A stretch of 47,252 nucleotides of DNA from Syntrophomonadaceae bacterium. GTDB lineage: Bacteria > Bacillota > DSM-12270 > Thermacetogeniales > Thermacetogeniaceae. Shown here piece by piece: positions 215 through 29,471 of this stretch. Each line of letters starts with the position of its first letter. The stretch's first letter is position 1. Location: the NCBI GenBank assembly GCA_012516535.1, contig JAAYWP010000037.1:1-47252 (forward strand), in the 5' to 3' direction. The translations under genes and the position numbers were made by a program. Under the pieces are notes generated by a model. It searched no databases. It was not told the DNA's origin and worked only from the letters and a program-made list of their open reading frames with translations.

Positions 215-2896
215 TTATGTCAGCTTTTCCACCTTGACAGCGCAGACCTTGTATTCACCTGTTTTAGTGACGGGGTCCAGCGCGTCACTGGTCAGCACAT
301 TGGTCGGAGTTTTTGTGTAATGGAAAGACATCCAGATCATTCCAGGTGGCACCCGGTCCGTTACCTGAACCTTTGTTGTCACTTCTCCTCGCCGGGAGGT
401 TACCTTAACCTTGTCACCTGTTGTAACTCCCAGCCGTGATGCATCATCAGGGTTGACCTCTGCATATTCCTCATTCCACATGCTGTGTATCCCTGCAGAA
501 TAGGGTGTTGTCACATTGTAATGGAACAGGATCCTGCCGGTAGAGAGCAGATATGGGTATTGATCATCAGGTAATTCTGCAGGTGGTACGTGGTCGATAC
601 CCTGGAACAATCCCTTACCCCTGGTAAATGCAGTAGCGTGCAGGTATTTGGTACCCGGGTGATCCGGTGTGGGGCACGGCCACTGCAGCCCTTCCTTATC
701 AATGCGGGCATAGCTCATCCCCTGATAAGAAGGTGTCAAAGAAGCCATTTCATTGAAAATTTCCTCTGTAGTGTTGTAGTTCATCTGATAACCCATCCTG
801 TTGCTTATCTCCATGATGGGCTGCCAGTTGTTACGGCCTGCGAGCGGTTCGATGGCTTTGCGAACCCGCTGGACACGCCGCTCTGTGTTGGTGAATGTTC
901 CATCGACTTCAGCGAAGCTGGCCCCAGGGAGTACCACATCAGCATATTGAGCGGTTTCGGTCAGGAATAGCTCCTGCACCACCAGAAACTCCAATTTTTC
1001 CAAACCGGCTTTGATGTGGTTGGCATTGGGATCGGTCAACACCGGGTTTTCACCCAAAATATACATGGCTTTGATTTCTCCGGCGTTGGCAGCATCAAAC
1101 ATCTCAGGGATCATCAAGCCAACATCGCCAGGCAGAGAGACTCCCCAGGCTTTTTCGAATTTTTCCCTCACAGCCGGATCTGTGACCTTCTGGTAGCCAG
1201 GGAAGACATTGGGGAGAGCGCCCATATCACAGGCACCCTGGACATTGTTCTGACCGCGCAGGGGGTTAACTCCTGTGCTTTCCCGGCCGATATGTCCAGT
1301 CAGCATAGCCAGGTTGGCGATGCTCATTACATTTTTGGTTCCACATACGTGCTCTGTGATCCCCAGGGTATAGAATATTCCGGCCTTATCGGTTGTGGCA
1401 TAGAGCCTGGCTACAGCATAGATGTCTTCAGCAGGCACACCGCAGAGTTCTGAGGCGTATTCAGGTGTGTATTTTTCTACGGCTTGTTTCAATTCTTCAA
1501 AGTTCTCTGTGCGCTCTTCGATAAACTTCTTATCGTAGAGCCCCTCTTTGATAATAACATGCATAATGCCGTTCAGGAGCGGGATATCTGTGCCCGGTTT
1601 GATCTGCAGCCAATAATCGGCTTCTTCAGCCAGTTCGGTACGCCGCGGGTCAACAACTATCAGTTTTGCTCCTTTTCGCCTAGCCTGCTTCATTTTATAA
1701 CCGATCACCGGATGGGCCTCAGTTGTGTTAGTTCCGATCAGGAATAAGAGTTCGGCCCCAAGTATTTCATTGATGGAGTTTGTCATTGCGCCACTGCCGA
1801 ATGATGTGGCCAGACCGGCCACTGTGGGCGCGTGTCAGGTACGGGCACAGTGGTCGACGTTGTTTGTGCCCATCACCGCCCTCACAAATTTTTGCATCAG
1901 GTAATTATCTTCATTGGTACACCTAGCAGAACTCAAAGCTGCAAAAGCTTTGCCCCCGTATTTATCTTTTATTTCCCCCAAACGCTTTGCTATGGTGTCT
2001 AAGGCCTCATCCCAGGAAACCGGGACAAATTTGCCATCCACTTTAACCAGAGGAGTTGTCAGCCTTTTGTCGCTGTGTACATAATCCCAGCCAAAACGGC
2101 CCTTAATGCAGAGCTGTTTGCCGTTGACTGGACTCTCCGGGTTGGAGGCAACACCTGCGATCTTGCCATCCTTCACCAGCAGGTCGAAGTTGCATCCAGT
2201 ACCACAGAAGGGGCAGGTGGTTCTGACCCTTTTATACTCCCATCTGCGTCCTTTGCCCACCATCTGTTTTTCTGTCAGAGCTCCGGTGGGGCACACCGCC
2301 ACACAGTTGCCGCAATAAACACAGTCTGATTCCGCTAAACTGGTGTCTCCAAAGGGCCCCACTTTGGTTTTGAATCCGCGGTAAGCGAAGTCAATAATGT
2401 CCTTGCAGGTCATTTCTGCGCAGGCTCTGATACACCGTCCGCAGAGGATGCATTTGTTGAGGTCCCGGACGATAAAGGGGTTATTGTCTTCCAGTTCATA
2501 GCTGTGTTTTTCGGGATTGATGAAAGGACTCTCTTTAACCCCATACTCATAGCAGTATTCTGCCAGCTTGCAATCGCCCATTTTTTCACAGGATAGGCAG
2601 TCCAGCGGGTGGTTGGCGATCAGCAGCTCTAATATAGTTTTGCGGGCCTCAATAATTTGAGGTGTATTAGTGCGCACAACCATACCATCAGTTGCCATTG
2701 TTACACAGGATGCGGGAAGATTGCGCATGCCCTCAATTTCCACAATACAAAGTCTGCAGGCTCCTACTGCAGTCAGGTCCGGGTCATGGCAGAGCCTAGG
2801 TATATGGATTCCCAGCTGTTCTGCTGCCTCAAGGACAGTTGTCCCAGCAGGAACCTGAACTTCTTGTCCATCAATCGTCAGCTTGACAAGTTCCAT
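215..2896 (-). CDS. fdhA: Selenocysteine-containing formate dehydrogenase alpha subunit (molybdopterin oxidoreductase with N-terminal 2Fe-2S/4Fe-4S ferredoxin domains), read through a TGA at 1835-1837
   Basis: The two track ORFs (1835-2896 and 215-1822) are in the same frame, joined as ...[31 protein letters not shown]..., the FDH active-site region. RBS AAGGAGGG precedes ATG at 2896. Confidence 0.92.
1806..1822 (-). promoter_or_regulatory. Bacterial SECIS-like hairpin just 3' of the Sec UGA
   Basis: Minus strand: TGA CACGCGCCCACA GTGGCC-GGTCT-GGCCAC, a 6-bp perfect stem with GGUCU apical loop, as in E. coli fdhF. Confidence 0.85.
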
Positions 2897-6313: not shown

Positions 6314-8206
6314 ATGGTGATCTGTGGAAATATAGGAGTAGTTGCCCGTGACAGAATGGTTAACCTCGTTCGCAAAGTTGCCACCGAAATACCACGTTTT
6401 AATAACTTTAAATTCACATATTTTGAGGGAAAGTTTGCGCACTCTTTTGAAGTAATCAATAAGGTAGTTGATGATATTGATCTTTTTTTATGCGGACATG
6501 GACATAGCAGGCTGATAGAGGAGTGGTTTCCAAATAAGCCGGTTGTTGTGATAGATCCTTTACCTTTTGATATTTTGTCAGCGATTTTGGAAGCTGCAAA
6601 AATAGATCATATAGTAAATATAATAAACACATATGAGTTTATAGAACTAGAAGATGTGAAAGAAATACTGAGGAGCGATATTAATATTTCTCAATATAGA
6701 TTTAAAGATGATAGTGAGCTAAAAGAGCTATTGGAATTTATTAGAAGGAAAGGTGGAAAAGCGGTTGTAGGAGGTACCTCAGTAAATGAACTGGCCCCGG
6801 CTTATGGGCTAAAACCCTTTTATTATTACTCAGAGAAGGCTGTTAAGGATGCAATTGTGGATGCAACCAACTTAGTGCTTTTAAAGTTCGAACAAAAGTT
6901 GCGTCAAGAAAATATTAATAAACTGATTGATTTAAGTAATGTTGGCTTAATGGTAGTCGATGAAAATCAAAAAGTTCAATATATCAATAATAGTGCGCTC
7001 AAGATGTTAAACCGCACTAGTGCAAATACCGTAGGTATTGATATAAAAAGGATTTTACCAGATATAGAACTCAGTGAACTGGAAGAACACGGCAAGATAT
7101 TAGATATAAATAATAAACAGTTGCTTTGCGATGCTAATATTTTCGATCCCGAGAATTCTGTTTATCGTTTTCAAGAGGTAAATCAGGTAGAAAGCGCAAG
7201 CTACAAGATAAGACGCCAAATGTTAACCAAGCCTGCAACAGCAAAGTATCATTTTTATGATATAGTTGGTAGCAAGCTGGAGCCTACTAAAGAAATAGCC
7301 CGTTCCTATGCCATATCATCTGATGCTAATATCTTAATTGTTGGGCCAACAGGCATCGGTAAAGAGTTATTCGCTTCTAGTATTCATAATTGCAGCAAAA
7401 GAGCTAATGAACCCTTTGTACCGATTAATTGTGCGGCATTACCTGAAAACCTGTTGGAGAGTGAATTGTTCGGTTATGAGGGTGGAGCTTTTACCGGTGC
7501 AAAAAAACATGGGAAAAAAGGGTTAATAGAACTGGCGCATAAAGGTACGCTTTTTTTAGATGAGATTGGAGAAATGCCTGTTTCAGTGCAGGCTAAGCTC
7601 TTGAGAGTATTGCAGGAAAAAGAAGTTTTACATGTGGGTGGAGAGGAACTTATTCCTGTTGATATCCGAGTTATTGCAGCTACCAACCGTGATCTCGAGG
7701 AATGTATCAAAAATAAGACCTTTAGACCTGACCTATATTATCGCTTATCAACACTTATACTTGAGATCCCCCCCCTGTCGGCTAGACCTGAAGATGTCCC
7801 AGAACTGATAGATTATTATACCAAATCTGAGCCTATCTCTGAGATCAGTAAGCAAATTATAAAGGATGTTCTTTGTCAGGTATATAGAAACTATAATTGG
7901 CCAGGAAATGTCAGGGAATTACAAAATATTGTGGAACGAGTTATTACTTATCTAAGATATACTTCAAAAGAAAACATGCCTGCTAAAGATTTGGTGAAAG
8001 ATTTGACTGTATTTTTGAAAGGGGCCAAAAATAATATAGAGATATCCTATGATACTGATTTTACTACATTGGAAAGAACAACAAGCAATAAAATCAGCAA
8101 AGATATGATTAAAAAAGCCTTGAATTCTGTAGGTGGGAATAAAACTAAAGCAGCGAAGTTATTGGGGATTAGCAGATCAACATTATGGAGATATCTAAAA
8201 AATTAA
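6314..8206 (+). CDS. Sigma54-dependent activator with PrpR-like N-terminal sensor domain, PAS-like region, AAA+ domain and Fis-type HTH
   Basis: GPTGIGKELFASSIH (Walker A), GYEGGAFTGAKK (GAFTGA loop), GTLFLDEIGEMP (Walker B), C-terminal NKTKAAKLLGISRSTLWRYLKN. Confidence 0.9.
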   Translation: MVICGNIGVVARDRMVNLVRKVATEIPRFNNFKFTYFEGKFAHSFEVINKVVDDIDLFLCGHGHSRLIEEWFPNKPVVVIDPLPFDILSAILEAAKIDHIVNIINTYEFIELEDVKEILRSDINISQYRFKDDSELKELLEFIRRKGGKAVVGGTSVNELAPAYGLKPFYYYSEKAVKDAIVDATNLVLLKFEQKLRQENINKLIDLSNVGLMVVDENQKVQYINNSALKMLNRTSANTVGIDIKRILPDIELSELEEHGKILDINNKQLLCDANIFDPENSVYRFQEVNQVESASYKIRRQMLTKPATAKYHFYDIVGSKLEPTKEIARSYAISSDANILIVGPTGIGKELFASSIHNCSKRANEPFVPINCAALPENLLESELFGYEGGAFTGAKKHGKKGLIELAHKGTLFLDEIGEMPVSVQAKLLRVLQEKEVLHVGGEELIPVDIRVIAATNRDLEECIKNKTFRPDLYYRLSTLILEIPPLSARPEDVPELIDYYTKSEPISEISKQIIKDVLCQVYRNYNWPGNVRELQNIVERVITYLRYTSKENMPAKDLVKDLTVFLKGAKNNIEISYDTDFTTLERTTSNKISKDMIKKALNSVGGNKTKAAKLLGISRSTLWRYLKN

Positions 8207-8539: not shown

Positions 8540-8557
8540 CTGTTTTATATAAAACAG
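8540..8557. promoter_or_regulatory. Candidate upstream activator site for the PrpR-like regulator
   Basis: 18-bp perfect palindrome CTGTTTTATATAAAACAG about 80 bp upstream of a -24/-12 promoter. Same TGTTTY-N4-RAAACA architecture recurs at 15448 and 15478. Confidence 0.6.
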
Positions 8558-8633
8558 GTGTTGAAACAGTTATTATGCCTTCAAATTTTGGGATAATACA
8601 GTGTTATATGCAATTGAACATAAGTAAAATTGT

Positions 8634-8650
8634 TGGCATGGATCTTGCGT
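8634..8650 (+). promoter_or_regulatory. Sigma54 (-24/-12) promoter of the GRE operon
   Basis: TGGCATGGATCTTGCGT: GG (8635-8636) and GC (8647-8648) at 12-nt spacing, about 105 bp upstream of the GRE start. Confidence 0.8.
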
Positions 8651-8753: not shown

Positions 8754-11153
8754 GTGGCACTCTCACCAAGGATTGAGTCGTTTAAGAAAAATCATAAGGT
8801 CAAACATTTTTGGAAGGAGGGTTATGTAGAGCCGGTTTACATTTCAATCTGGCGTTCTCGTATTTTCACCAGAGTATGGAAGGAAACAGAAGGCGAACCG
8901 ACTTCGGTCAGAAAGGCAAAATGTGTTGCAGCCTATCTACGAGAAGTTCCGATCTTTATCAGAGATGACGAAATCATCGTAGGGTTTTATGCCGAAGATC
9001 CTTTAGCTTTGCCAGTTTGTATAGAAGCAGTGGATCAAAGCATTGTCAGAAAAATGATTGCTCAAGGCCATGTGAAAGAAGATGAAATTGAAGAATGGGA
9101 AGAAATTCTCGATTACTGGAAAGACAGGGGAGTCCAAAAATTATTAACCGCTCGTTTGACAGATGAAGAATTAAAAATAGCCTCAGCTGACCATGCATTT
9201 ATGGAAGTTTTGCCTACACAGTATACTTCTCGTTCCCAGGCAGAATATGATCTTCCATTAGGGAAAGGGCTTCTCGGAATTAAAAAGATTTTAGAAGAAA
9301 AATATGCAAATTTAATTGAAGAAAGGGAAGCCTCTGTTGGTGGTACAGAGTATCTTGAAATCAATGACAAGTTGAACGATCTCAAAGCCATGATGATAAC
9401 AATAGATGCAGTTATCGACTGGGCTAATCGTTATGCTGACTTAGCAGAACAGAAGGCTAAGGAAGAGAAGAACGAGCAGAGGAAAAAAGAGCTTCTAGCG
9501 ATAGCTGAAAGGTGCCGTCATGTTCCCGCAAATCCGGCCAGGAACTTTGCTGAAGCAGTGCAAAGCCAGTGGTTCTGCTTCCTTGTTGTACAGATGATTG
9601 AACACTTATCTCATGGTACTTCTGTGAGGATAGACCAGATATTCTGGCCTTGGTATGAAAAAGATGTCCTTATCGACAAGACTTTGTCAAGACAGGAAGC
9701 TCTGGAAATAATGGAAGAGCATATCCTAAAAATTGATGAATTGGGACGCCCGCTGCCAGATGCTTGGAGAAAGAGTATCCAGGGCAATAACTTCCTGGGC
9801 ACTTATACCATTGGCGGGACTAAACCCGATGGTACCGATGCCTGCAATGACTTGACCCTTCTTATCTGTGAAGCGATGGATGAGCTGTGGCTTAACCATC
9901 CTGACTTCAAATTCAGATGGCATCCAGATGCAGATCCAAAATGTGTAGAAAAAGTACTGGACCTGCAGAGAAGAGGTTTGGGACAGCCCTCTATTAAAAA
10001 TGAAAGAGTAACAATTGAAAGCTTACAGAAACACTATGGGTTTACTGAAGAAGAAGCCAGAAGCTGGGCGGTTGTTGGTTGTATTTCTCCTGCACCGACT
10101 CTCAACTGGGGTAGAGCGCGTAGAGATGCTTGGACAGTCTATCCGGCAAAAGTCCTCGAATTAACTCTCTTTAACGGTATTAACCCGACTACTGATGAGG
10201 ATATCGGTATTAAAACAGGTGATGCTACAGAATTTAAGTCTTTTGATGAACTTTTTGAAGCCTACAGAAAACAGTTTGAGTGGGTTATGAAGCTGTCTGC
10301 ACGCATTAAGACAATTGGCGAAGACTGCATGAACAAATTATGTAAGCGGCCATTCCTGTCTACATTATTCAGGCGCTCCATCGAGGCTTGCAGGGATATT
10401 ATGGATGCTCCGGATAAGGGTATGCCATGGGTTAATATACCTGGAGCTGTAGACTCTGTTGATTCATTAATCGCTTTGAAGAAATTAGTATTTGAAGAAA
10501 AGAAATATACCATGGAAGAGGTGCTAAAAGCACTGAAAGCCGACTGGGAAGGCTATGAAGAAATGAGACAGGATTTCATCAATGCTCCCAAATACGGCAA
10601 TAATGATCCCTACGCCGATGAAATCGCCAGAGATACATATAATATGTATGCTGACGAGATGAAAAAAGTAAAAGATATTAATAATCAGGCGCCACAGCCG
10701 TCTGGCCTTATCATCACCTGGATGTTCTCTACAGCAGATAAGGTTGGGGCTTTGCCAAACGGGCGTAAAAAAGGCGACTACCTGACTGATGGTGGCTGCA
10801 GCCCGCATGCTGGCTATGACAAGAACGGGCCTATGGCAGCAATATTATCAGCATCTAAGCTTGACTTCTCAAAGCAAAAGGCACAGATCTTCAACCAGAA
10901 GTTATCACCTTCCTGTGTTGAAGGCGAAGTCGGCATGAAAAAGTTCAATGATTATGTAAAATCAATCATGGATCTGGGCTTGGAAATGGTGCAGTTTAAT
11001 GTAGTGGATGCTGCAACCCTCAGAGATGCCCAAGCCCATCCAGAGAAATACCCGAATCTCGTTGTTAGGATCTCAGGATATAACGCGAACTTTGTAGAAC
11101 TAGACAAATTTGTGCAGGATGCTGTTATTGAACGGACAGAGCATATTCTGTAA
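8754..11153 (+). CDS. Glycyl radical enzyme (pyruvate formate-lyase-like superfamily), substrate unknown; GCIS active-site loop
   Basis: C-terminal glycyl loop VVRISGYNANFVEL (Gly about residue 775, codon 11076-11078) and active-site Cys about residue 443 (codon 10080-10082) in WAVVGCISPAP. GTG start. Confidence 0.92.
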   Translation: MALSPRIESFKKNHKVKHFWKEGYVEPVYISIWRSRIFTRVWKETEGEPTSVRKAKCVAAYLREVPIFIRDDEIIVGFYAEDPLALPVCIEAVDQSIVRKMIAQGHVKEDEIEEWEEILDYWKDRGVQKLLTARLTDEELKIASADHAFMEVLPTQYTSRSQAEYDLPLGKGLLGIKKILEEKYANLIEEREASVGGTEYLEINDKLNDLKAMMITIDAVIDWANRYADLAEQKAKEEKNEQRKKELLAIAERCRHVPANPARNFAEAVQSQWFCFLVVQMIEHLSHGTSVRIDQIFWPWYEKDVLIDKTLSRQEALEIMEEHILKIDELGRPLPDAWRKSIQGNNFLGTYTIGGTKPDGTDACNDLTLLICEAMDELWLNHPDFKFRWHPDADPKCVEKVLDLQRRGLGQPSIKNERVTIESLQKHYGFTEEEARSWAVVGCISPAPTLNWGRARRDAWTVYPAKVLELTLFNGINPTTDEDIGIKTGDATEFKSFDELFEAYRKQFEWVMKLSARIKTIGEDCMNKLCKRPFLSTLFRRSIEACRDIMDAPDKGMPWVNIPGAVDSVDSLIALKKLVFEEKKYTMEEVLKALKADWEGYEEMRQDFINAPKYGNNDPYADEIARDTYNMYADEMKKVKDINNQAPQPSGLIITWMFSTADKVGALPNGRKKGDYLTDGGCSPHAGYDKNGPMAAILSASKLDFSKQKAQIFNQKLSPSCVEGEVGMKKFNDYVKSIMDLGLEMVQFNVVDAATLRDAQAHPEKYPNLVVRISGYNANFVELDKFVQDAVIERTEHIL

Positions 11154-11173: not shown

Positions 11174-11207
11174 GTAGAGTCTTGGGGAAATATCCCCAAG
11201 ACTCTAC
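11174..11207 (+). other. 15-bp perfect intergenic hairpin without U-tract
   Basis: GTAGAGTCTTGGGGA-AATA-TCCCCAAGACTCTAC between GRE and activase genes. Confidence 0.8.
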
Positions 11208-11255: not shown

Positions 11256-12173
11256 ATGAGTAAACATGGCTTTATTACGAATTTTCAAGACTTTGCGGTC
11301 CACGATGGTTTTGGACTGCGGGTACTATTATTTCTAAAGGGATGCCCTTTAAGGTGTACTTGGTGCCAGAATCCTGAAGCAATATCTACTGAATATGAAC
11401 TTATGTTTCATCCAAAGCTATGCAAAGGTTGTGGCAAATGCCTCGAGGTTTGTGAGGTAAAAGCTATTAACAATGATGGAACGGAAAAAGTTGATAGAAG
11501 CAAGTGTAATAAATGTATGAAATGTACCTATGTTTGCCCGACAGGAGCGTTGGCCCGCAAGGGTAAATGGATATCCTCTGATGAGGTGGTTCAAACTTTT
11601 ATTGATTACAAACCCTTTTTCGATAACTCAGATAAAGGTGGCATTACTTTATCTGGCGGAGAACCTCTTTTTCAGCCAGAGTTTGCAATTGATATACTGC
11701 AGAAATGCCGCGAAAAGGGTATTCATACAGCTATGGAAACATGCGGTTACGCAAATTATTCAGTTGTATCGGAAGTAGTTAAGCATCTGGATCTGTTAAT
11801 GTACGACATTAAACATATGGATGAGATAAAGCATAAAAAGGGAACCGGAGTGTCTAATAAAAAGATACTTGAAAATCTCGCTAATATAAGGCGCGACTTC
11901 CCTGACCTTGAGATATTTATCAGAATTCCGTTAATTCCGGGATTTAATGATGATGAGGAGAATATAACTCAAACTGCGAAATTCTTGGCATCGATCGGTA
12001 TTGATAAGTTAGACATACTGCCTTTTAATTTTTTAGCAGACGCCAAATACAACGCTTTGGGGATAGAATGGAGACATAAGCGAGATGAGCGCCAGGATGA
12101 TGAGCACCTACAAAAATTAGCGGAAAAAGCGAAGTTATATGTGCCTGATGTGACCATCGGTGGATTGCGTTAG
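11256..12173 (+). CDS. Glycyl radical enzyme activating enzyme (radical SAM with 2x4Fe-4S ferredoxin insert)
   Basis: KGCPLRCTWCQNPE (CxxxCxxC), CKGCGKCLEVC and CNKCMKCTYVCPTGA, TLSGGEPLFQ. Confidence 0.93.
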   Translation: MSKHGFITNFQDFAVHDGFGLRVLLFLKGCPLRCTWCQNPEAISTEYELMFHPKLCKGCGKCLEVCEVKAINNDGTEKVDRSKCNKCMKCTYVCPTGALARKGKWISSDEVVQTFIDYKPFFDNSDKGGITLSGGEPLFQPEFAIDILQKCREKGIHTAMETCGYANYSVVSEVVKHLDLLMYDIKHMDEIKHKKGTGVSNKKILENLANIRRDFPDLEIFIRIPLIPGFNDDEENITQTAKFLASIGIDKLDILPFNFLADAKYNALGIEWRHKRDERQDDEHLQKLAEKAKLYVPDVTIGGLR

Positions 12174-12252
12174 CTTTGGGTATAGAAGTTTTGGCCACTC
12201 ACCTATTTAGGCGATACGCAGCTTGTATAGCTATATTAGGAGGCGAATTTCC

Positions 12253-13098
12253 ATGAGGGAAATCAGTACGGAGGTTATTAAAGAAACTGTAAAGGATCTG
12301 TTTATCAAAATTAACTATGACATTGGTGAAGATGTTCTTGCAGCTCTGAAAGAAGGCCTTGAAAAAGAGGAATCGGAAACAGGTCGGGCCATCCTGGAAC
12401 AGATTCTTGAGAATGACAAAATAGCCGCCACAGAACGGATCGCAATGTGTCAAGACACAGGATTTTCTATTATCTTTGTCAAACTGGGCCAAGATGTGCG
12501 TATAACAGGTGGGGATTTCAATGAGGCAATTAATCAGGGAGTTCGTGAAGCGTATCAAGAGGGATATTTAAGAAAATCGGTGGTTGATGACCCGCTCTTT
12601 GATCGTAAGAACACCAAGGATAACACACCTGCGATAATATATGTGGAAATGGTCCCAGGCGACAAAATTCATATAGAGGTTACTGCCAAGGGCGGCGGAA
12701 GCGAAAATATGAGTGCTATGAAGATGCTTACACCCTCGCAGGGTGAACAGGGTGTTCGGGATTTTGTAATAGGCACAGTAAGTAACGCAGGACCTAATCC
12801 CTGCCCGCCAATTATAGTAGGTGTTGGAATCGGTGGAACCATTGAGAAGTGTGCACTGCTCGCTAAAAAAGCCACACTGCGCAAGTTGGGAGAACATAAT
12901 CCAGACCCGCGTTATGCCCAATTAGAAAAGGATTTGCTGGAGGAAATAAACAAACTGGGGATCGGCCCTGGTGGCCTTGGGGGGAGAGTAACCGCACTAG
13001 CGGTCAACATAGAACATTTCCCGGCTCACATTGCTTCTTTGCCTGTTGTAGTAAATATTTGCTGTCACGCCGCTCGGCATGGCGAAGCAGTGATATGA
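12253..13098 (+). CDS. Class I fumarate hydratase / tartrate dehydratase-type, alpha subunit
   Basis: AMCQDTGFSIIFVKLG, KGGGSENMSAMKMLTPSQG, CPPIIVGVGIGGT. AGGAGG RBS precedes ATG 12253 (the track ORF extends to 12223). Confidence 0.88.
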   Translation: MREISTEVIKETVKDLFIKINYDIGEDVLAALKEGLEKEESETGRAILEQILENDKIAATERIAMCQDTGFSIIFVKLGQDVRITGGDFNEAINQGVREAYQEGYLRKSVVDDPLFDRKNTKDNTPAIIYVEMVPGDKIHIEVTAKGGGSENMSAMKMLTPSQGEQGVRDFVIGTVSNAGPNPCPPIIVGVGIGGTIEKCALLAKKATLRKLGEHNPDPRYAQLEKDLLEEINKLGIGPGGLGGRVTALAVNIEHFPAHIASLPVVVNICCHAARHGEAVI

Positions 13099-13112
13099 GG
13101 GGAGGGAGCAAT

Positions 13113-13670
13113 ATGACAAAACAATATAAAAAAATAACTACACCATTAACTGATGAAGTGGTAAAGAGCCTGAAGGCGGGAGATAATGTTCTGATCAGCG
13201 GTGAAGTTTATACGGCACGTGATGCTGCACATAAAAGGTTTATTAGCTGTATTAAGGAAGGAAAAGAACTGCCCATCGACTTAAACGGCAAGGTTATTTA
13301 TTATGTAGGCCCAGCACCAGCTAAGCCAGGTTATGTATGTGGTTCTGCAGGCCCCACAACCAGTGGGCGTATGGATAGCAACACACCACCGCTGTTGGAT
13401 AGAGGACTAAAAGGAATGATCGGCAAGGGTCTGCGTTCTCCTGAAGTGGTAGAGTCCATGAAAAAGAATAAAGCTGTCTATTTTGCTGCAACCGGTGGAG
13501 CTGCTGCCTTGATAGCGAAAAGTATTAAAAAAGTAGAGTTGGTCGCTTACGAGGATCTGGGAACAGAAGCAGTGCGGAAAATGGTAGTGGAAGATCTCCC
13601 GGTAACAGTTGTAATAGACTCTGAAGGCAACAATCTTTATGAAACCGGTCCTGTTAAATATAAAAGATAA
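13113..13670 (+). CDS. Class I fumarate hydratase / tartrate dehydratase-type, beta subunit
   Basis: KAGDNVLISGEVYTARDAAHKR, YVGPAPAKPGYVCGSAGPTTSGRMD. GGAGGGAG RBS precedes ATG 13113. Confidence 0.88.
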   Translation: MTKQYKKITTPLTDEVVKSLKAGDNVLISGEVYTARDAAHKRFISCIKEGKELPIDLNGKVIYYVGPAPAKPGYVCGSAGPTTSGRMDSNTPPLLDRGLKGMIGKGLRSPEVVESMKKNKAVYFAATGGAAALIAKSIKKVELVAYEDLGTEAVRKMVVEDLPVTVVIDSEGNNLYETGPVKYKR

Positions 13671-13832: not shown

Positions 13833-15167
13833 ATGCCTTCTAATGATGAGCGTCTATCCAAAGCAAATAAACCAGCAGAGGATGCCTTGAAACTCCATCC
13901 ATTTTACCGTGGTAAAATGCAAACATTGCCACGATGTGCAGTTAGAAGTATGGACGACTTTGCTATCTGGTATACACCTGGAGTTGCTGCACCTTGTAAG
14001 GAGATCAATAAAAATAAGGATCTTGTTTATGACTATACCTGTAAGTGGAATACAGTGGCTGTTATTTCTGATGGTACTAGAGTATTGGGCCTGGGAGATA
14101 TTGGCCCGGAAGCCGCTATGCCTGTTATGGAAGGTAAGGCCCTGCTCTTCAAATATCTGGGCGGTGTAGATGCTGTGCCAATTTGTCTGGATACCAAGGA
14201 TCCGGACGAGTTTATTCAGACGGTGAAATATCTTCAGCCTTCCTTTGGCGGTGTTAATCTGGAGGACATTTCTTCCCCTAAATGCTTTTATATCCTTGAG
14301 CGTCTGCGCAATGAGATGGAAATACCTGTCTGGCATGATGACCAGCAAGGAACAGCAGCAGTTACTTTAGCTGGTTTGATTAATGCCCTTAAACAAGTCG
14401 GCAAAAAATTGGATGAAGTTAAAATAGCTATGATCGGAGCAGGAGCTGCTAACATTCGTATTGCAAAAGTGTTGATTAAAGCTGGCGTTACTCCAGGTAA
14501 CATATATATGACTGATGTTAACGGAATCCTCAATCCTGAGCGCACCGACTTAAAAGATAATAAAGAGACTTGGGAGTTATGTACAATAACTAACGCTGAA
14601 GGCCGTACAGGTGGGAATGCAGAAGCGATTAAGGGAACAGATGTGGTTATCGCGTTATCTGCACCAGGTCCGGGTATTATCAAAAAGGAATGGATAAGTA
14701 CTATGGCTGACGAAGCCGTTGTCTTCGCTTGCGCTAATCCTATTCCAGAAATCTGGCCATGGGAAGCCAAAGAAGCCGGAGCCAGGATTGTAGTCACTGG
14801 ACGCTCCGACTTCCCCAACCAGGTTAATAATTCTCTGGGTTTCCCTGCTATCTTCCGTGGTGCCCTGGATGTCAGAGCGAAAACCATCACCGATGAGATG
14901 TGCATAGCTGCTGCTTATGCATTAGCTAATTTCGCAGAAGAAAAAGGATTGCTTAAAGATGATTACCTCTTACCGACAATGGAAGATTGGGAAGCCTTCC
15001 CCATGGAGGCGGCTGCTGTTGGAGTAAAAGCAGTTGAGCAGGGAGTGGCGAGGATTGAACGAAGTTATGACGAGTTATACAATATGGCGTTAAATTCTAT
15101 TAAAGAGGCTCAAGAGATGACTCGATTATTAATGAGAGAAGGGCATATAGCAAAGGCACCGAAATAA
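13833..15167 (+). CDS. NAD(P)-dependent malic enzyme
   Basis: [73 protein letters not shown]. Confidence 0.92.
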
Positions 15168-15285: not shown

Positions 15286-15327
15286 GCGTCGAAAACAGTG
15301 ATTTAAACTGTTTTCGACGCATTTTTG
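15286..15327 (+). terminator. Rho-independent terminator ending the GRE-malic enzyme operon
   Basis: GCGTCGAAAACAGT-GATTTAA-ACTGTTTTCGACGC followed by ATTTTTG. Confidence 0.85.
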
Positions 15328-15447: not shown

Positions 15448-15463
15448 TGTTTCATCTAAAACA
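15448..15463. promoter_or_regulatory. Candidate activator site
   Basis: TGTTTC-ATCT-AAAACA, matches TGTTTY-N4-RAAACA. Confidence 0.55.
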
Positions 15464-15477
15464 GTATTATACAAAAT

Positions 15478-15493
15478 AGTTTTAAACGAAACA
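15478..15493. promoter_or_regulatory. Candidate activator site (one mismatch)
   Basis: AGTTTT-AAAC-GAAACA, 30 bp centre-to-centre from the previous site. Confidence 0.5.
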
Positions 15494-15556
15494 GTTGTTT
15501 ATCACAGGTTTGCTTAGTTTTGTGCTAAATTCCCGAAATAAACGTGTTTAGAGGAA

Positions 15557-15573
15557 TGGCACGGTATTTGCGT
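15557..15573 (+). promoter_or_regulatory. Sigma54 (-24/-12) promoter of the amidohydrolase operon
   Basis: TGGCACGGTATTTGCGT: near-perfect consensus; GG (15558-15559) and GC (15570-15571) at 12-nt spacing. Confidence 0.9.
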
Positions 15574-15733: not shown

Positions 15734-17173
15734 ATGAAGTATGATCTAGTAATCAAAAATGGGATTGTATGCACTGAAAAAGGCATGTTCCACGGTGGTT
15801 TGGCTATTAAAGATGGTATTATTCAATCCTATGTTATTGATGCGGATCTGACGAAAGCAGAGAGGTACTATGATGCAAAGGGAAACCTTATTTTCCCTGG
15901 TGTTGTGGAATGCCATGCACATTTAGGTAACCGCACGCGGACAAATGAGAGTGTGAACGAAGACCTCTATACAGAAACAAGAGCTGCTGCTCAAGGTGGT
16001 ATTACTACATGCAATTCAACAACTCTAAAAGGTACTTTGCCTCTACATACTTATTACGAACTTGCACAAGAAAATATCGCAAATATATATACCAATTTTA
16101 AGTTCACTGTAGCCCCCGCTAGTGATGCTCAATTTGCGGAAATGGAGGATCTGGTAAAAACCGGTGGCCCATGTGCGTTTAAGTTATATTTGGGCTATAG
16201 AGGCGAGAGCGCAAGAATGTTTGGCATGGATGAAACCGGCTTTGACACCGGAAAAATGTATTGGGCATTTTCACAGATTGCCAAAATCGGGCCTCCTGCT
16301 TTTGCCATAATCCATGCTGAGGACCCCAGTATATTCGAACTAGTGACAGCAGAAGTAAAAAAAGAGCTAAAGGAAAAACCAACTGACAATTTAATTGCTG
16401 CTTACAACAAAGCAAGACCTAGCCTTTGTGAAGTAGTTGATATTTGCAAAGCTGCCATAATTGCCAATGAGGTTGGATGCCCCCTTTATATAGCACATAT
16501 CTCCGCAAAAGAATCCGTAGATCAAGTCGCTTACTTCCTAAAACGCGGTTTTGATATAACTGTTGAAACATGTCTCCACTATTTACTGCTTTCTTGTGAT
16601 GATGATGTCTTTGTTAATAATGAGGATTACTGCAAATTTGCAAAAGTTAACCCGCCTATCCGTGGAGACGCAGATAGAGAAAGATTATGGCAGGCTATCA
16701 GAGAAGGAATCATCACTTGCGTCGGAACAGACAGTGTTGCTTACACAAGAAAACAAAAACTGGAGCCGGATTTCTGGGATACTATTTGCGGATGTGGAGA
16801 TGCCTATTATTGCTTGCTGCCATTGATGTTCAGTGAAGGAGTTAACAAAAATAGGATCTCACTCGATACGCTAAGAAAAATACTGTGCGAAAACCCAGCA
16901 AAAAGATATGGGATCTATCCTCAGAAAGGTACATTAAACATAGGATCAGATGCTGATATCACGATCATTGATCCGAACAAAGAAATGGTAATCGACTATC
17001 AGGAGAGTGAAAGCTCAAACGAATTCAGTCTCTATCAGGGTTGGAAAGTCAAGGGTGTTCCTGTAGCTACATTTGTCAATGGTTATTTGGTAGCGGAAAA
17101 CATGAAGATTGTTGATGAAACACCACATGGCAAACTAGTTCATCATAACCTTAAGACCTCTAAAATCGTTTAA
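15734..17173 (+). CDS. Dihydropyrimidinase/hydantoinase/allantoinase-like cyclic amidohydrolase
   Basis: VVECHAHLG (HxH), GGITTCNSTTLKG, FKLYLGYRG (carboxylated-Lys motif), YIAHISAKES, GTDSVAYT. Confidence 0.85.
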   Translation: MKYDLVIKNGIVCTEKGMFHGGLAIKDGIIQSYVIDADLTKAERYYDAKGNLIFPGVVECHAHLGNRTRTNESVNEDLYTETRAAAQGGITTCNSTTLKGTLPLHTYYELAQENIANIYTNFKFTVAPASDAQFAEMEDLVKTGGPCAFKLYLGYRGESARMFGMDETGFDTGKMYWAFSQIAKIGPPAFAIIHAEDPSIFELVTAEVKKELKEKPTDNLIAAYNKARPSLCEVVDICKAAIIANEVGCPLYIAHISAKESVDQVAYFLKRGFDITVETCLHYLLLSCDDDVFVNNEDYCKFAKVNPPIRGDADRERLWQAIREGIITCVGTDSVAYTRKQKLEPDFWDTICGCGDAYYCLLPLMFSEGVNKNRISLDTLRKILCENPAKRYGIYPQKGTLNIGSDADITIIDPNKEMVIDYQESESSNEFSLYQGWKVKGVPVATFVNGYLVAENMKIVDETPHGKLVHHNLKTSKIV

Positions 17174-17387: not shown

Positions 17388-18464
17388 ATGTCTACTGGTT
17401 TTCCGAAATTTGTTGTCTCCGGTAATAGCTACCAAAAAGGGGTTATGTACGGAGAGCAAGCTAAAGATAGAATTGAAAAAAGCGTTGCTTTTTACAATTC
17501 AACATTTAAAAAACGGAATATCAGTGATGAGATGTTAGCCAAACTGGTAGAGAAATTTAGAAAGATTATTGAAAGGGAGTACCCTGAACAGTATCAACAA
17601 ATAAAGGGTATTGCTGAAGGAAGCGGCATTCCTGTTGAACAGATAATCGCCCTCAATTGCAGGAGCGAAATATTACAAACTGCCAGGTTGATGGCTCCGG
17701 AATGTACAGTTTTTGCTGCGATGCCTGAAGCCACTGCGAACGGACACGCCTACTGCGGCCAGAACTGGGACTGGTATCCGGAATGTGCGGAATTTGCCAT
17801 CGTTCTGGAAGCACAAAATGATGATGGTCCAGATTGCCTCATCTTCGTAGAGGCAGGAATGCTGTGCAGAAATGGTATGAACAGCGTAGGTATCGGTGTT
17901 TGTGGCAACGGGCTGACTGCCAAAGGGGATGCACAACAGGAGGGTATACCTATTCCCCTTGTACGCCGCAGCATCCTCGAGAGCAAATCTTATGGCTATG
18001 CCGTTGAAATATTATTATGCTCTCAGAGGGCTTCTTCTGCCAATTACATTTTAGCCGATAAAGCAGGGGTTGCAATTAATTTTGAGCTGACACCGAATGA
18101 TTTCTTCCAAATGTACCCGGAAAATGGAATCCTTGCACATGCTAATCATTTTATCGCTGGCAGGGGTTTTGTAGAAGATGTTTTTGTCAAAGTATTCCCC
18201 GATTCTGTCTATCGATACCTAAGAGCTAAAGAAATTCTAAATGCGGCAGCCCCCAAAATCACTCTTGATGATATTAAAGCAATGTTTTCAGATCATTTTG
18301 GATATCCAAGGTCTATCTGCAGGCACTTTGAGGAAAAAGGCGGAGTTGGCCAGTATGAAACAGTTGCTTCCATTATCATGGATTTAACAGCAGGCATTCT
18401 GTACGTCAGCAATGGCCCACCCTGTGAGAATGAATATCATGAATATACATTCTCTAAAAAGTAA
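17388..18464 (+). CDS. Peptidase C45 / acyl-CoA:6-aminopenicillanate acyltransferase-like Ntn amidohydrolase
   Basis: PECTVFAAMPEATANGHAYCGQNWDWYPE (candidate autoprocessing Cys followed by GxNWDW) and VNFEL/ANHF-type motifs. Confidence 0.8.
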   Translation: MSTGFPKFVVSGNSYQKGVMYGEQAKDRIEKSVAFYNSTFKKRNISDEMLAKLVEKFRKIIEREYPEQYQQIKGIAEGSGIPVEQIIALNCRSEILQTARLMAPECTVFAAMPEATANGHAYCGQNWDWYPECAEFAIVLEAQNDDGPDCLIFVEAGMLCRNGMNSVGIGVCGNGLTAKGDAQQEGIPIPLVRRSILESKSYGYAVEILLCSQRASSANYILADKAGVAINFELTPNDFFQMYPENGILAHANHFIAGRGFVEDVFVKVFPDSVYRYLRAKEILNAAAPKITLDDIKAMFSDHFGYPRSICRHFEEKGGVGQYETVASIIMDLTAGILYVSNGPPCENEYHEYTFSKK

Positions 18465-18600: not shown

Positions 18601-19926
18601 ATGGCTGCTACAGCTACAGACAAAAGCGGAAACTCAATGTGGAGAGTTGGTTTATCCAGCTTACTCGGTACAACTATGGAGTTTTATGATTTCCTAGTTT
18701 ATGGTACAATGGCTGCCCTTGTTTTCGGTGATATTTTCTTCCCCGAGGCTGGCAGTAGTATTGTTGCCTTGCTGTATTCCTACGCAACCTTTGCGATCGG
18801 TTTTTTTGGTCGTCCTATTGGTGGAATGATCTTTGGACACTATGGAGATAAATTAGGGCGTAAATTGATGTTGGTTGTCACCATGACGGTCATGGGTGTG
18901 GCGACTATAGCGATCGGTTGCTTGCCAACTTATGCCCAAGTAGGAGTATTGTCTCCCATTTTACTGATTGTTTGTCGCTTAGTCCAAGGCCTTGCCCTGG
19001 GTGGTGAATGGGGCGGTGCAGCATTAATGGTTATGGAATCCGCTCCTGACGGAAAACGCGGCATGTGGAGCAGCTTGACACAGATGGGTGCTTCTTTCGG
19101 CATGATCTTATCAACAGGTATGGTTGCCCTGGTAACGCAGTTGCCAAATGAGGCCTTTATGGCTTGGGGTTGGCGTGTCCCGTTTTTGTTTAGTGTAGTG
19201 CTGATTGTTTTAGCTCTTTATGTCCGCTCTACCCTTAAAGAATCAAGAGTATTTGAGCAGATGAAAGAGGATAAAAAAGAAGCTAAAATGCCTCTTATCG
19301 AAGTATTCAAAAAACAACCAGGGGCTGTTATTAAGACCGCAGGCATTGGTGCCACAAACAACGTGTCCTATTATTTCGTAGCTACTATTGCGCTTTCATA
19401 TGGTACTACACAACTCGGTTTCCCAAGATCTACCATGGTTAATGCTCTGCTTGTAGTATCAATTGTCTACTTATTTACACTACCTCTCTTTGCAACTTTG
19501 ACAGACACATTCGGGAGAAAGAAGATCATTGGGTTGGGTATCATCTTGGTGGGTCTTTTTGCCTTCCCGTATTTCAAAATGCTTGAGACCGGCAATTTCT
19601 TCCTCATTGGCTTAGCCATGACCCTGATGCTGGCTGTATTTCAATCCATGGTCTATTCGTCTCAGGCGGCTTTCTTCCCGGAACAGTATGATCCTCGGTA
19701 TCGCTACACCGGTGCCTCGCTATCCACTAACTTAGCTACATCAATATTTGGCGGAACATGCCCCTTTATTGCCACTGCATTGTCAGGAGCAGCCGGTGGG
19801 GCTAGCTGGCCGATGTCCTTGTATTTGGTCTGTATATGCATTATGAGCTTTATTTGCCTGTACTTTACTAAAGAAACTTATAAAGCTGATGTCACTGAGT
19901 ATCAGGCAGATAAACTTGAGGCTTAA
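18601..19926 (+). CDS. MFS transporter, metabolite:H+ symporter (MHS)-like
   Basis: GTTMEFYDFLVYGTMAALVF, FFGRPIGGMIFGHYGDKLGRK, RLVQGLALGGEWGGAALM. Confidence 0.88.
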   Translation: MAATATDKSGNSMWRVGLSSLLGTTMEFYDFLVYGTMAALVFGDIFFPEAGSSIVALLYSYATFAIGFFGRPIGGMIFGHYGDKLGRKLMLVVTMTVMGVATIAIGCLPTYAQVGVLSPILLIVCRLVQGLALGGEWGGAALMVMESAPDGKRGMWSSLTQMGASFGMILSTGMVALVTQLPNEAFMAWGWRVPFLFSVVLIVLALYVRSTLKESRVFEQMKEDKKEAKMPLIEVFKKQPGAVIKTAGIGATNNVSYYFVATIALSYGTTQLGFPRSTMVNALLVVSIVYLFTLPLFATLTDTFGRKKIIGLGIILVGLFAFPYFKMLETGNFFLIGLAMTLMLAVFQSMVYSSQAAFFPEQYDPRYRYTGASLSTNLATSIFGGTCPFIATALSGAAGGASWPMSLYLVCICIMSFICLYFTKETYKADVTEYQADKLEA

Positions 19927-20069: not shown

Positions 20070-21446
20070 ATGACACAGGTTAATAACACTGTCAGGAAGA
20101 GTTCTCCCCATTTAGATAAACTTGCGGAGTTCATTGCAGAGGCAAAGTATGAAGACCTGGATCAAAAAACAATAGACCATACAATTAAGGTGCTTTATGA
20201 CACTACAGGAGTTCAATTTCGCGGTTCTATTGAGCCGGAGGTCAGCAAATTTATCGAATCATTGCCTAAAACAACTGATCAGCCGGCTTCATTAATAGCT
20301 CCTAATTTTCCTAAGACCGATTATCTTTGGGCAGCAATGGCTAATGGCACAGAGGGTATTTTCATGGAATTAGATGAGGGCCACCGCCCTACAGGCCATC
20401 CTGGTATTCATGTTATCCCGGCTGCATTAGCAGTCGCTGAAAAACTGAATGCTTCCGGCAAAGACCTAATATTAGCTGTGGTTCTCGGCTATGAAGTGGC
20501 TGCCAGAATCAGCAATGGCTTAAAACTGAAGCCGGGCATTCATCCCCATGGACATATCGGTACGGTTGGAGCCGCGGCTGCCTGCGGAAAACTTATGGGA
20601 TTTAATGCGGAACAGATTAAAGAAGCGATGAATTGTGCGGCGTCACTGCCGATAGCTACTTCCTTTGAAGCTTGTTATGAAGGGGCAACGATCCGCAATT
20701 CATATACCGGAGTTTCTAATGCCATTGGGCTTCTCTCTGCACAATTAGTTGCAAGCGGCTTTACTGGAACAGATGCCGGTGTGGAACACACATTTGGCAC
20801 GATGCTAGGAAAAACTTTTGCACCGGCTTGCTTGTCTGTTGATCTCGGAGAGGAATTCCAAATAACTACTAACTACTTTAAATTTCATGCTTGCTGTGCC
20901 GCAAACCACCCTGCTCTTGATGCCTTACAACAGATTCAGAAAGAGAATAAATCATTAGATCTTAATGATATTAAAAAAATTGATGTTTATATAACTGATT
21001 ATTCGATGATGGTTAATAGATACCCGGCAAGAAACCAATTATCAGCCAAGTTTTCACTTCCATTCGCAGTAGCAACAACACTATTTCATGGCAAGGCTAC
21101 TACTGAAGCTTTCCAAGATGATAAGGTCAAATTGCCGATTCTTGATACTATTGCCCGGAAAGTAGAAGTGATTGCCTCTCCGGAACTTACAAAGCGCTGG
21201 CCAGCAGAGGTAAGTGCGAGGGTTAAAATAAGTTTAACAGATGGCCAGGTTTTAGAAGGATATTGCAAAAACGCCTATGGTTATTGGCAGAATCCCTGCA
21301 CAACTCAAGATCTGATTGATAAGTTCAGAGATTTAACAAAAACTCATTATCAAGAACAGGCAGCAGAGCAAATATATGATCTATTTGTCAAACTCCCGGA
21401 ATATAGTTCTTTCGTAGCTTTTATGGATGATTTACGGAAGATATAA
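20070..21446 (+). CDS. MmgE/PrpD-family protein (paralog 1)
   Basis: AAMANGTEGIFMELDEGHRPTGHPGIHVIPAALAVAEKL, ILAVVLGYEVAARI, FKFHACCAANHPALDAL. Confidence 0.85.
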   Translation: MTQVNNTVRKSSPHLDKLAEFIAEAKYEDLDQKTIDHTIKVLYDTTGVQFRGSIEPEVSKFIESLPKTTDQPASLIAPNFPKTDYLWAAMANGTEGIFMELDEGHRPTGHPGIHVIPAALAVAEKLNASGKDLILAVVLGYEVAARISNGLKLKPGIHPHGHIGTVGAAAACGKLMGFNAEQIKEAMNCAASLPIATSFEACYEGATIRNSYTGVSNAIGLLSAQLVASGFTGTDAGVEHTFGTMLGKTFAPACLSVDLGEEFQITTNYFKFHACCAANHPALDALQQIQKENKSLDLNDIKKIDVYITDYSMMVNRYPARNQLSAKFSLPFAVATTLFHGKATTEAFQDDKVKLPILDTIARKVEVIASPELTKRWPAEVSARVKISLTDGQVLEGYCKNAYGYWQNPCTTQDLIDKFRDLTKTHYQEQAAEQIYDLFVKLPEYSSFVAFMDDLRKI

Positions 21447-21499
21447 TATCACGCTTTCTATAGGTGATATGCATAGAAATAGAAAAAGGAGGAGTTTTG

Positions 21500-22879
21500 A
21501 TGGCAGAGAAAACCTTAGCTGAGATTATTGCTGATTTTACAATGGATTTGTCATTGGACTCTGTACCGAATGATGTCCTTGAACACGCAAAAAGACTAAT
21601 ATTGGATACCTTAGGTGTCGCATTGGTTGCTTGTGAAACAGAACCTGCAACTATTGTGCGTGATGTAGTTGTTAGAATGGATAGTAAACCTGAAAGTACA
21701 TTATGGGGTACAGATAAGAAGGCCTCTATGGCCGATGCGGTATTAGCAAATGGAACCTTGATTCATGGAATGGAATTCGATGATACCCATGTGGGCGGGA
21801 TAGTGCATCCAAGTGGTGTTGTAGTTAACACAGCTATCACTGTAGGTGAGGCGGTTGGGGCTTCTGGAAAGGATATTTTGGCTGCAGCCATTTGCGGCTA
21901 TGAAATTTTGATTAGATTGGGTTTGGCGACCAAGGGCCGTTTCCACATGCGCGGTTTTCAAACAACAGGAGTGATGGGCTCTTTTGTGGCATCCTGTATT
22001 GCCGCGAGGCTTTTAAAGCTGCCTAAAAAGGATCTGGTTAATGCATTGGGTATTTGCGGAAGCCAGGCTGCTGCCTTGATGGAGTTTTCGCGCGATGGCA
22101 CCTGGCCTAAGAAACTCCATGCAGGTTGGCCGTCCCATTGCGGTATTTATTCAGTGCTGCTAGCTGAAAAGGGCTTTACAGGGCCTCGGACAATATTTGA
22201 AGGGGAAACAGGCATATGGAAAAGCCATGTTGGTGATACAGAGGGTCTGATGGAGGCCTTTGAGGATTTAGGCGAAGTGTGGCTGACTACAGAGGTCATT
22301 TCAAAGATGTACCCGGTTTGCCATTACATCGCTTCGTTTATTGATATTACTCTTGCTTTAAGGGAAGAGTATGGATTAACCGCTGATATGATTGATAGGA
22401 TAGAATGCCGTGTTGATCCGCTAGAAGCGCTTACTATTGTCCAGCCCATCGAGGCTAAGAGAAGACCACCCAGTGACAATGCAATGCGTTACAGCCTCCC
22501 TTATTGTATTGCTATGGCAATTGAAAAAGGTAAAGTGGGACACCAGGAAATAAGTCCGAACTATCTTAACAACCCGGTTTTGGAAGGTTTGATGGATAGA
22601 GTAGATTGTATAATTGATGAAAATGCAGCAGTTCCAGGACATTTCCCAGGTGATGTAAAAATAATTCTGAAAAACGGCAAAGAATACCATAGGGTTCAAA
22701 GAACTGAAACTGGATCAGCCGAAAACCCGCTCGATCCAAACAAGGTTATTGAAAAATTCAGAGACAATGCCGGGCTTTTCTTTAGCGAAGATAAGGTTGA
22801 GAAGCTTGTACAAACTCTGTCCAAATTTGAAGAGCTCACTAAAGTTGACGATTTAATTGCAGATTTGAAAATTATATAA
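21500..22879 (+). CDS. MmgE/PrpD-family protein (paralog 2)
   Basis: LILDTLGVAL, VLANGTLIHGMEFDDTHVGGIVHPSGVVVNTA, ICGYEILIRLG, KMYPVCHYIASFID. AAAGGAGG RBS precedes ATG 21500. Confidence 0.88.
   Translation: MAEKTLAEIIADFTMDLSLDSVPNDVLEHAKRLILDTLGVALVACETEPATIVRDVVVRMDSKPESTLWGTDKKASMADAVLANGTLIHGMEFDDTHVGGIVHPSGVVVNTAITVGEAVGASGKDILAAAICGYEILIRLGLATKGRFHMRGFQTTGVMGSFVASCIAARLLKLPKKDLVNALGICGSQAAALMEFSRDGTWPKKLHAGWPSHCGIYSVLLAEKGFTGPRTIFEGETGIWKSHVGDTEGLMEAFEDLGEVWLTTEVISKMYPVCHYIASFIDITLALREEYGLTADMIDRIECRVDPLEALTIVQPIEAKRRPPSDNAMRYSLPYCIAMAIEKGKVGHQEISPNYLNNPVLEGLMDRVDCIIDENAAVPGHFPGDVKIILKNGKEYHRVQRTETGSAENPLDPNKVIEKFRDNAGLFFSEDKVEKLVQTLSKFEELTKVDDLIADLKII

Positions 22880-25949: not shown

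Positions 25950-29471
<3,522 letters not shown>

Follow-up and report, generated by a model that had tools for sequence, protein, structure and literature searches.

The oxygen-sensitive glycyl radical enzyme (GRE) encoded in the window, that is, the whole 47,252-nucleotide stretch of DNA analyzed here, belongs to a lineage that is, as far as the openly licensed literature goes, an undescribed sister of the X-succinate synthases (XSS; the benzylsuccinate and alkylsuccinate synthases, BSS and MASS), with an ordinary fold but not an ordinary family. No description of the clade was found in the openly licensed papers searched on GRE together with tricarballylate, MmgE PrpD, reverse fumarate lyase, or a novel fumarate-adding clade.

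Identity and phylogenetic placement of the enzyme

The GTG start codon of the reading frame is preceded by AAGGAGG, and the product was matched with near full-length domain coverage by PF02901 (506 bits) and PF01228 (98 bits) in the domain search. The PFL-like domain, the radical glycine (Gly775 in RISGYNANF), the active-site cysteine (Cys443 in GCISPAP), and the dedicated radical-SAM activase encoded by the adjoining gene place the protein in the GRE superfamily, within which it reached the cut-off of no NCBIfam GRE equivalog (its best score was 470 bits, vs a cut-off of 1000). A preceding sequence-only reading had given the reading frame (8754–11153), the loop WAVVGCISPAPTLNWGRARRDAW, and a Cys at about residue 443, all of which proved exact; it had also called the loop atypical, with Ser in place of Glu two residues after Cys, and had argued against a standard eliminase. 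Indeed, PDH and HypD carry Glu at this position in the alignment (C-x-E), where the GRE has Ser445, and the loop is atypical in comparison with the eliminases; C-x-S-P is, however, the normal loop of XSS (LCMSP in TutD and ACMSP in MasD), and the Ser, singled out earlier as a feature of interest, is the norm there. In the homologue L004 (55% identical), GCVAP replaces C-x-S-P, and the residue is Ala or Ser across the clade; because of the Ala in L004, Ser445 was ruled out as a catalytic residue.

The resemblance to XSS suggested by the sequence-only reading was borne out by sequence, tree, and fold. The best solved relatives in the sequence search were MasD (505 bits) and TutD (461 bits), followed by CutC (410 bits). 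In a maximum-likelihood tree, the GRE clustered at 100/100 with five other close homologues (53–72% identity) from Bacillota, Chloroflexota, and a deltaproteobacterial MAG, namely those of G226 (72%), the deltaproteobacterial MAG (L007; 60%), and three paralogues within one Chloroflexi MAG (L004–L006; 53–55%). L020 and L042 formed the sister of this clade (100/100), and the two clades united with XSS (BSS, MASS, and the L041-type group) at 100/100, the XSS branch without the GRE clade being itself supported at 93/92. Thus, the GRE clade is the sister of XSS and not a member: it fell neither inside the BSS and MASS clade nor with PDH and HypD, the only named eliminases included in the tree, and nesting inside a family of known function, which would have counted against the sequence-only reading, did not occur. 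The AlphaFold model (pLDDT 86, pTM 0.89, with residues 442–455 of the Cys loop below pLDDT 50) was closest to BSS and MASS (TM 0.95–0.96), the others, including glycerol dehydratase, giving 0.90. The clade is rare: among 399 sampled genomes of the phylum, a single close homologue (72%) was found outside the genome of the window itself. A close GRE was missing from 19 sampled members of the same family, and the plasmid collection yielded only relatives of about 30% identity.

Active-site residues and accessory subunits

In MASS and BSS, one fumarate carboxylate lies in the oxyanion hole of the Cys loop and the other on Arg492/Arg508, and Gln707 (BSS) or Glu690 (MASS) and Ser199/Tyr194 lie beside fumarate (PMC12358834). 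Within the Arg-rich stretch to which the sequence-only reading had rightly drawn attention, R456 of the GRE aligned with this Arg492 and is invariant in 14 sequences; BSS Arg508 fell in a local gap in the MAFFT alignment and was paired with R456 in the HMMER alignment. The GRE thus has both the CxSP loop (C443-I-S-P) and the fumarate-binding Arg of XSS; the Gln/Glu at BSS 707/MASS 690 is absent, the residue being Leu652 in the GRE and Gly in L006. The column of BSS Ser199/MASS Tyr194 is occupied by R160, which is Arg in all six clade members and in the sister clade; it is also the column of PDH His166 and lies near, with a one-column offset in the alignment, HypD His160, which is essential (PMC7077986). 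R160 and H287 are conserved in the GRE clade and its sister clade and are missing from XSS. H287 aligned with Ser284 and D458 with Asp452 of PDH, two residues that we take to contact the substrate. Judged from the sequence, the active site would have no eliminase base, would keep the fumarate site, and would have a second pocket that is polar rather than greasy. Neither R160 and H287, nor the loss of the Gln707/Glu690 partner, nor the fumarase, malic enzyme, and PrpD context described below had been covered by the sequence-only reading.

That reading was right in seeing no BSS-like accessory subunits, and the absence extends genome-wide. The small Cys-rich Fe–S subunits of the BssB/BssC type, which adjoin the XSS genes used as controls (G378 and G107), were found nowhere in G000, G226, G404, and G405 (completeness, 82% for G000 and 100% for G226).

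Two other lineages lie on or next to the XSS branch. L020 and L042 constitute a second undescribed clade, in which the loop reads GCNTP and is followed by RRE, and Arg occupies the column of R160; a GRE of this type in G754 is followed by its activase, fumarase, and malic enzyme. The XSS branch itself includes a third lineage (L035, L038, and L041), whose loop reads LCKSP and which has Gln at column 707; L041 has one BssC-like subunit upstream. Outside XSS in the tree, a GRE clade of Bacillota MAGs, several from gut or rumen (L009, L012, L014, L018, and L019), carries Asp for Glu after Cys (GCVD/GCLD).

The gene island, its regulation, and its recurrence

The island (Table 1), which probably serves the breakdown of organic acids, comprises operon 1, with the genes for the GRE, activase, both fumarase subunits, and malic enzyme followed by a putative terminator, and operon 2, with those for the dihydropyrimidinase-like protein (no PDB match at E 1e-60), C45 hydrolase, MFS transporter, PrpD1, PrpD2, two DASS symporters, and pyruvate:ferredoxin oxidoreductase (PFOR).

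Table 1 Features of the GRE locus in the window
Feature	Position	Strand	Remarks
PrpR-type sigma-54 activator, 630 aa, probable island regulator	6314–8206	+	PrpR_N, Sigma54_activat, HTH_8; below PrpR equivalog cut-off
Palindromic putative activator site TGTTTTATATAAAACAG	8541–8557		Motif also at 15448
Putative sigma-54 promoter TTGGCATGGATCTTGC	8633–8648	+	105 bp upstream of GRE
GRE, 799 aa	8754–11153	+	GTG start; PF02901 and PF01228; alignment, tree, fold
GRE key codons	R160, 9231–9233; H287, 9612–9614; Cys443, 10080–10082; R456, 10119–10121; Gly775, 11076–11078		
Hairpin between GRE and activase	11174–11207		Perfect 15-bp stem
GRE-activating radical-SAM enzyme	11256–12173	+	TIGR02494 over cut-off; below all specific activase equivalog cut-offs
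Class I fumarate hydratase alpha subunit	12223–13098	+	NF004885, 415 bits (cut-off 276)
Class I fumarate hydratase beta subunit	13059–13670	+	NF005310, 300 bits (cut-off 238)
Malic enzyme	13833–15167	+	PF00390/PF03949
Putative terminator of operon 1	15286–15320	+	14-bp stem, T-rich tail
Palindrome, second copy TGTTTCATCTAAAACAG	15448–15464		Putative activator site
Palindrome, third copy GTTTTAAACGAAAC	15479–15492		Partly conserved
Putative sigma-54 promoter ATGGCACGGTATTTGC	15556–15571	+	Ahead of operon 2
Dihydropyrimidinase-like amidohydrolase	15734–17173	+	TIGR02033, 250 bits (below cut-off 393)
C45-family autoproteolytic acyltransferase/hydrolase	17388–18464	+	NF040521, 279 bits (cut-off 85)
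Metabolite/H+ symporter family MFS transporter	18601–19926	+	TIGR00883, 410 bits (just under cut-off 443)
MmgE/PrpD family protein 1 (PrpD1)	20070–21446	+	PF03972/PF19305; nearest solved, cis-aconitate decarboxylase
MmgE/PrpD family protein 2 (PrpD2)	21464–22879	+	Nearest solved, iminodisuccinate epimerase 2hp0 (E 1.6e-38)
DASS sodium-coupled anion symporter 1	23124–24437	+	TIGR00785 over cut-off
DASS sodium-coupled anion symporter 2	24465–25778	+	TIGR00785 over cut-off
PFOR	25962–29471	+	TIGR02176, 1937 bits

Matches to TTGGCAYGNNNNTTGC with ≤1 mismatch numbered two in the 47-kb window, one upstream of each operon; this count is not rare by chance (shuffle mean, 0.79; at least two in 16 of 100 shuffles), and it is the positions that are telling. 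The palindrome TGTTTYATNTAAAACAG lies about 75–95 bp upstream of both sigma-54 sites and nowhere else in the window, and no match with ≤1 mismatch is expected by chance, a flattering figure in that the motif was derived from these same sites. Moreover, a perfect sigma-54 site precedes the GRE gene in G226, and a PrpR-type activator gene adjoins the GRE gene in both the window and G226 (54% identity between the two activators). Presumably, operons 1 and 2 form one regulon; the hairpin downstream of the GRE gene is possibly an mRNA processing or attenuation element.

PrpD1 and PrpD2 failed the NCBIfam equivalogs for the 2-methylcitrate dehydratase PrpD (best, 50 and 56 bits vs 458–950), and their identification as methylcitrate dehydratase, cis-aconitate decarboxylase (CAD), or iminodisuccinate epimerase was rejected as unsupported by profile scores and alignment. 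No CoA-transferase, CoA ligase, or beta-oxidation genes were recognized in the island or in the G226 cluster, in contrast to a hydrocarbon pathway. Elsewhere in the window (215–2896, minus strand), adjacent ORFs of 353 and 535 aa correspond by motif to a single formate dehydrogenase-like protein interrupted by an in-frame TGA at DHCART-U-HAPTVAGLA, the usual selenocysteine site, and followed by a GGCC hairpin; the same split pair occurs in G008 (L079).

In G008, which is of the same genus, the genes for MurA, MntR, malic enzyme, SpoIID, and MreB occur in order without the island. The island therefore flanks a pre-existing malic enzyme gene on both sides, and the idea that this gene arrived as part of a transferred island was ruled out. 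The G226 cluster consists of genes for PrpR, GRE, activase, a TRAP solute-binding protein and permease, two PrpD proteins (the first 51% identical to PrpD2), fumarase alpha and beta, malic enzyme, and DASS; that of L007 consists of activase, GRE, and two PrpD genes, and one to three PrpD genes lie near each GRE gene of L004–L006. In the window and in G226, fumarase and malic enzyme follow the GRE, as they do the sister-clade GRE of G754, and organic-acid transporters are represented by the two DASS symporters in the island and by TRAP and DASS in G226. For the proximity of PrpD to the GRE, seen in four genomes, a simple Poisson model allowing for PrpD-rich genomes gives a combined P of 2e-7 to 3e-9; taken singly, two of the three Chloroflexi loci do not reach significance. 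The link between GRE and PrpD is a statistical one, since the PrpD proteins, one orthologous pair apart, are mutually divergent (22–35%) and both G404 and G405 are rich in PrpD. These 5-Mb genomes (those of L004–L007) show a large expansion, with 19 MmgE/PrpD genes in G404 and 49 in G405, against 0–5 in the other genomes searched.

The malic enzyme subfamily (at least 80% identity) occurs in 4 of 22 genomes of the class of G226, and adjoins a GRE of the clade, of its sister, or of XSS in G226, G754, and G378, the fumarase–malic enzyme pair in G378 adjoining a true fumarate-adding XSS. On a short contig of G755, the malic enzyme gene lies beside an ORF (L083, 3580–6183) that starts as a BSS-type GRE and ends as fumarase alpha, probably an assembly chimera or a deletion, which yet puts both genes side by side. 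In G752, the module closes an apparent methylmalonyl-CoA operon, named by eye from the sequences, where it would oxidize fumarate. Near the Chloroflexi homologues, both methylaspartate (glutamate) mutase subunits, scoring over the NCBIfam cut-offs, are encoded directly upstream of one GRE (L004, 8062–9950), and an aconitase-family pair lies near that of L006; a neighboring flavoprotein was rejected as the tricarballylate dehydrogenase TcuA (132–134 bits vs the cut-off of 369).

Proposed reaction and comparison with known systems

The explanation that we favor, tentatively, is that the GRE is a fumarate-linked radical lyase running XSS chemistry in the fumarate-releasing direction. On account of the kinship with XSS, R456, and the fumarase–malic enzyme context, there is a moderately strong case for fumarate as its reactant, product, or co-substrate. 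The extra cationic R160 and H287 suggest, with moderate strength, that the X group is polar or carries a carboxylate or other anion, and the lack of recognized CoA genes, together with the presence of importers and PFOR, makes us lean, weakly to moderately, toward release. The fumarase–malic enzyme module does not fix the direction, because it also lies beside the true XSS in G378 and could supply fumarate. The substrate may, speculatively, be a tricarballylate- or isocitrate-type acid, a tricarboxylate being the simplest guess because it fits PrpD and the aconitase-family pair in L006. In its fuller form, a possible but more tentative proposition, the subunit-free GRE would split carboxylated succinates (e.g., a 1,2,3-tricarboxylate), releasing fumarate together with another acid and acting as a radical, CoA-independent C–C lyase in a new anaerobic route for polycarboxylic acids.

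In such a mechanism, the activase would generate the Gly775 radical and thereby the Cys443 thiyl radical, which would attack an imported carboxylated succinate, X-CH(COO-)-CH2-COO-, and remove H from its CH2 group; beta-scission of the C–X bond would then give fumarate and a carboxylated X radical that regains H. Both fumarate carboxylates would be gripped by R456 and the oxyanion hole of the Cys loop, and the polar or anionic X group by R160 and H287. The substrate would be readied by one or both PrpD proteins (by epimerization, hydration, or dehydration), and fumarate would pass through fumarase, malic enzyme, and PFOR. Against this explanation, C–C cleavage to fumarate would be uphill, by about +30 kJ/mol in our own estimate for tricarballylate to acetate and fumarate, and would need a strong pull; furthermore, malic enzyme predates the island, and the partner Gln707 of BSS/Glu690 of MASS is Leu or Gly.

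Forward addition of a polar organic acid to fumarate, with malic enzyme and fumarase making fumarate from pyruvate, would also suit the XSS kinship, the fumarate Arg, and the same module beside the true XSS in G378. Addition to fumarate is the downhill direction; nevertheless, the adduct-processing genes expected of this route (CoA ligase, CoA-transferase, or beta-oxidation) were not recognized in the island or G226, the importers suggest uptake of a ready-made acid, and we consider it somewhat unlikely. A radical elimination reaction on a succinate that bears an N-, S-, or O-substituent, giving fumarate and an amine, thiol, sulfite, or alcohol with D458/H287 as acid/base replacing Glu, would account for the alignment of these residues with PDH Asp452 and Ser284, for the nearness of PrpD2 to iminodisuccinate epimerase, whose substrates are N-substituted aspartates, and for the dihydropyrimidinase-like and C45 hydrolases in operon 2. 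Yet C-x-E is missing, the tree groups the GRE with XSS and not with eliminases, many such substrates are cleaved by non-radical lyases, and the G226 cluster lacks the hydantoinase and C45 genes, making elimination unlikely.

Slightly less probable still is a fumarate-free radical reaction in which a hydroxy-tricarboxylate would be decarboxylated, dehydrated, or rearranged, with general catabolism as the role of fumarase and malic enzyme. The glutamate mutase genes and aconitase-family pair beside Chloroflexi homologues, the positions of R160 and D458 at eliminase substrate sites, and the lost Gln/Glu fumarate partner speak for it; the invariant fumarate Arg and the recurrence of fumarase–malic enzyme beside the GRE clade and its sister speak against it. 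Highly improbable, and already disfavored, is an XSS for hydrocarbon activation whose accessory subunits have been lost or replaced; this reading has the XSS kinship in its favor but conflicts with the polar substitutions at pocket positions, the genome-wide absence of BssB/BssC homologues from the four genomes despite positive controls, and the lack of a recognized downstream hydrocarbon pathway.

To our knowledge, XSS are known only as hydrocarbon activators requiring extra Fe–S subunits. The existence of a sister clade that keeps the fumarate Arg but has a pocket predicted to be polar, lacks the subunits, and is associated with an operon that drains fumarate suggests that fumarate chemistry either predates hydrocarbon activation or extends beyond it, and the GRE would offer a simpler, subunit-free enzyme for studying this chemistry. 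When hydrocarbon degradation is surveyed in the environment, genes of the clade and its sister are at risk of being misleadingly annotated as alkyl- or benzylsuccinate synthases.

Among known systems, MasD (PDB 9o8u) is the best sequence match, sharing the CxSP loop, Arg492 (R456), and the fold (TM 0.96), but it needs beta, gamma, and delta subunits and has a hydrophobic alkane pocket, whereas that of the GRE is predicted to be polar, Tyr194, Thr598, and Glu690 being replaced by Arg160, Asn561, and Leu652. TutD/BssA (PDB 4pkc and 5bwd), which gave the best fold E-value, likewise has the CxSP loop, and its Trp613 and Asn615 are kept as W559 and N561; it differs in that BssB/BssC are absent from the GRE genome, Ser199 and Gln707 are replaced by Arg and Leu, and the GRE neighborhood contains no bbs-type pathway. 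The GRE eliminases (glycerol/propanediol dehydratase, CutC, HypD, and IslA) share the fold, the polar pocket positions, D458 (PDH Asp452), and the lack of accessory subunits, but have Glu at Cys+2, and PDH and HypD lie outside the clade in the tree. Iminodisuccinate epimerase and CAD belong to the same MmgE/PrpD superfamily as PrpD1 and PrpD2, with only about 24–26% identity, and H159 and H277 of CAD, presumably catalytic positions, are Q and A in PrpD2 in the alignment. Finally, the propionate/methylmalonyl-CoA-type operon of G752 has no GRE but shares fumarase and the same malic enzyme subfamily, a fumarate-to-pyruvate module, with a PrpR-type regulator nearby.
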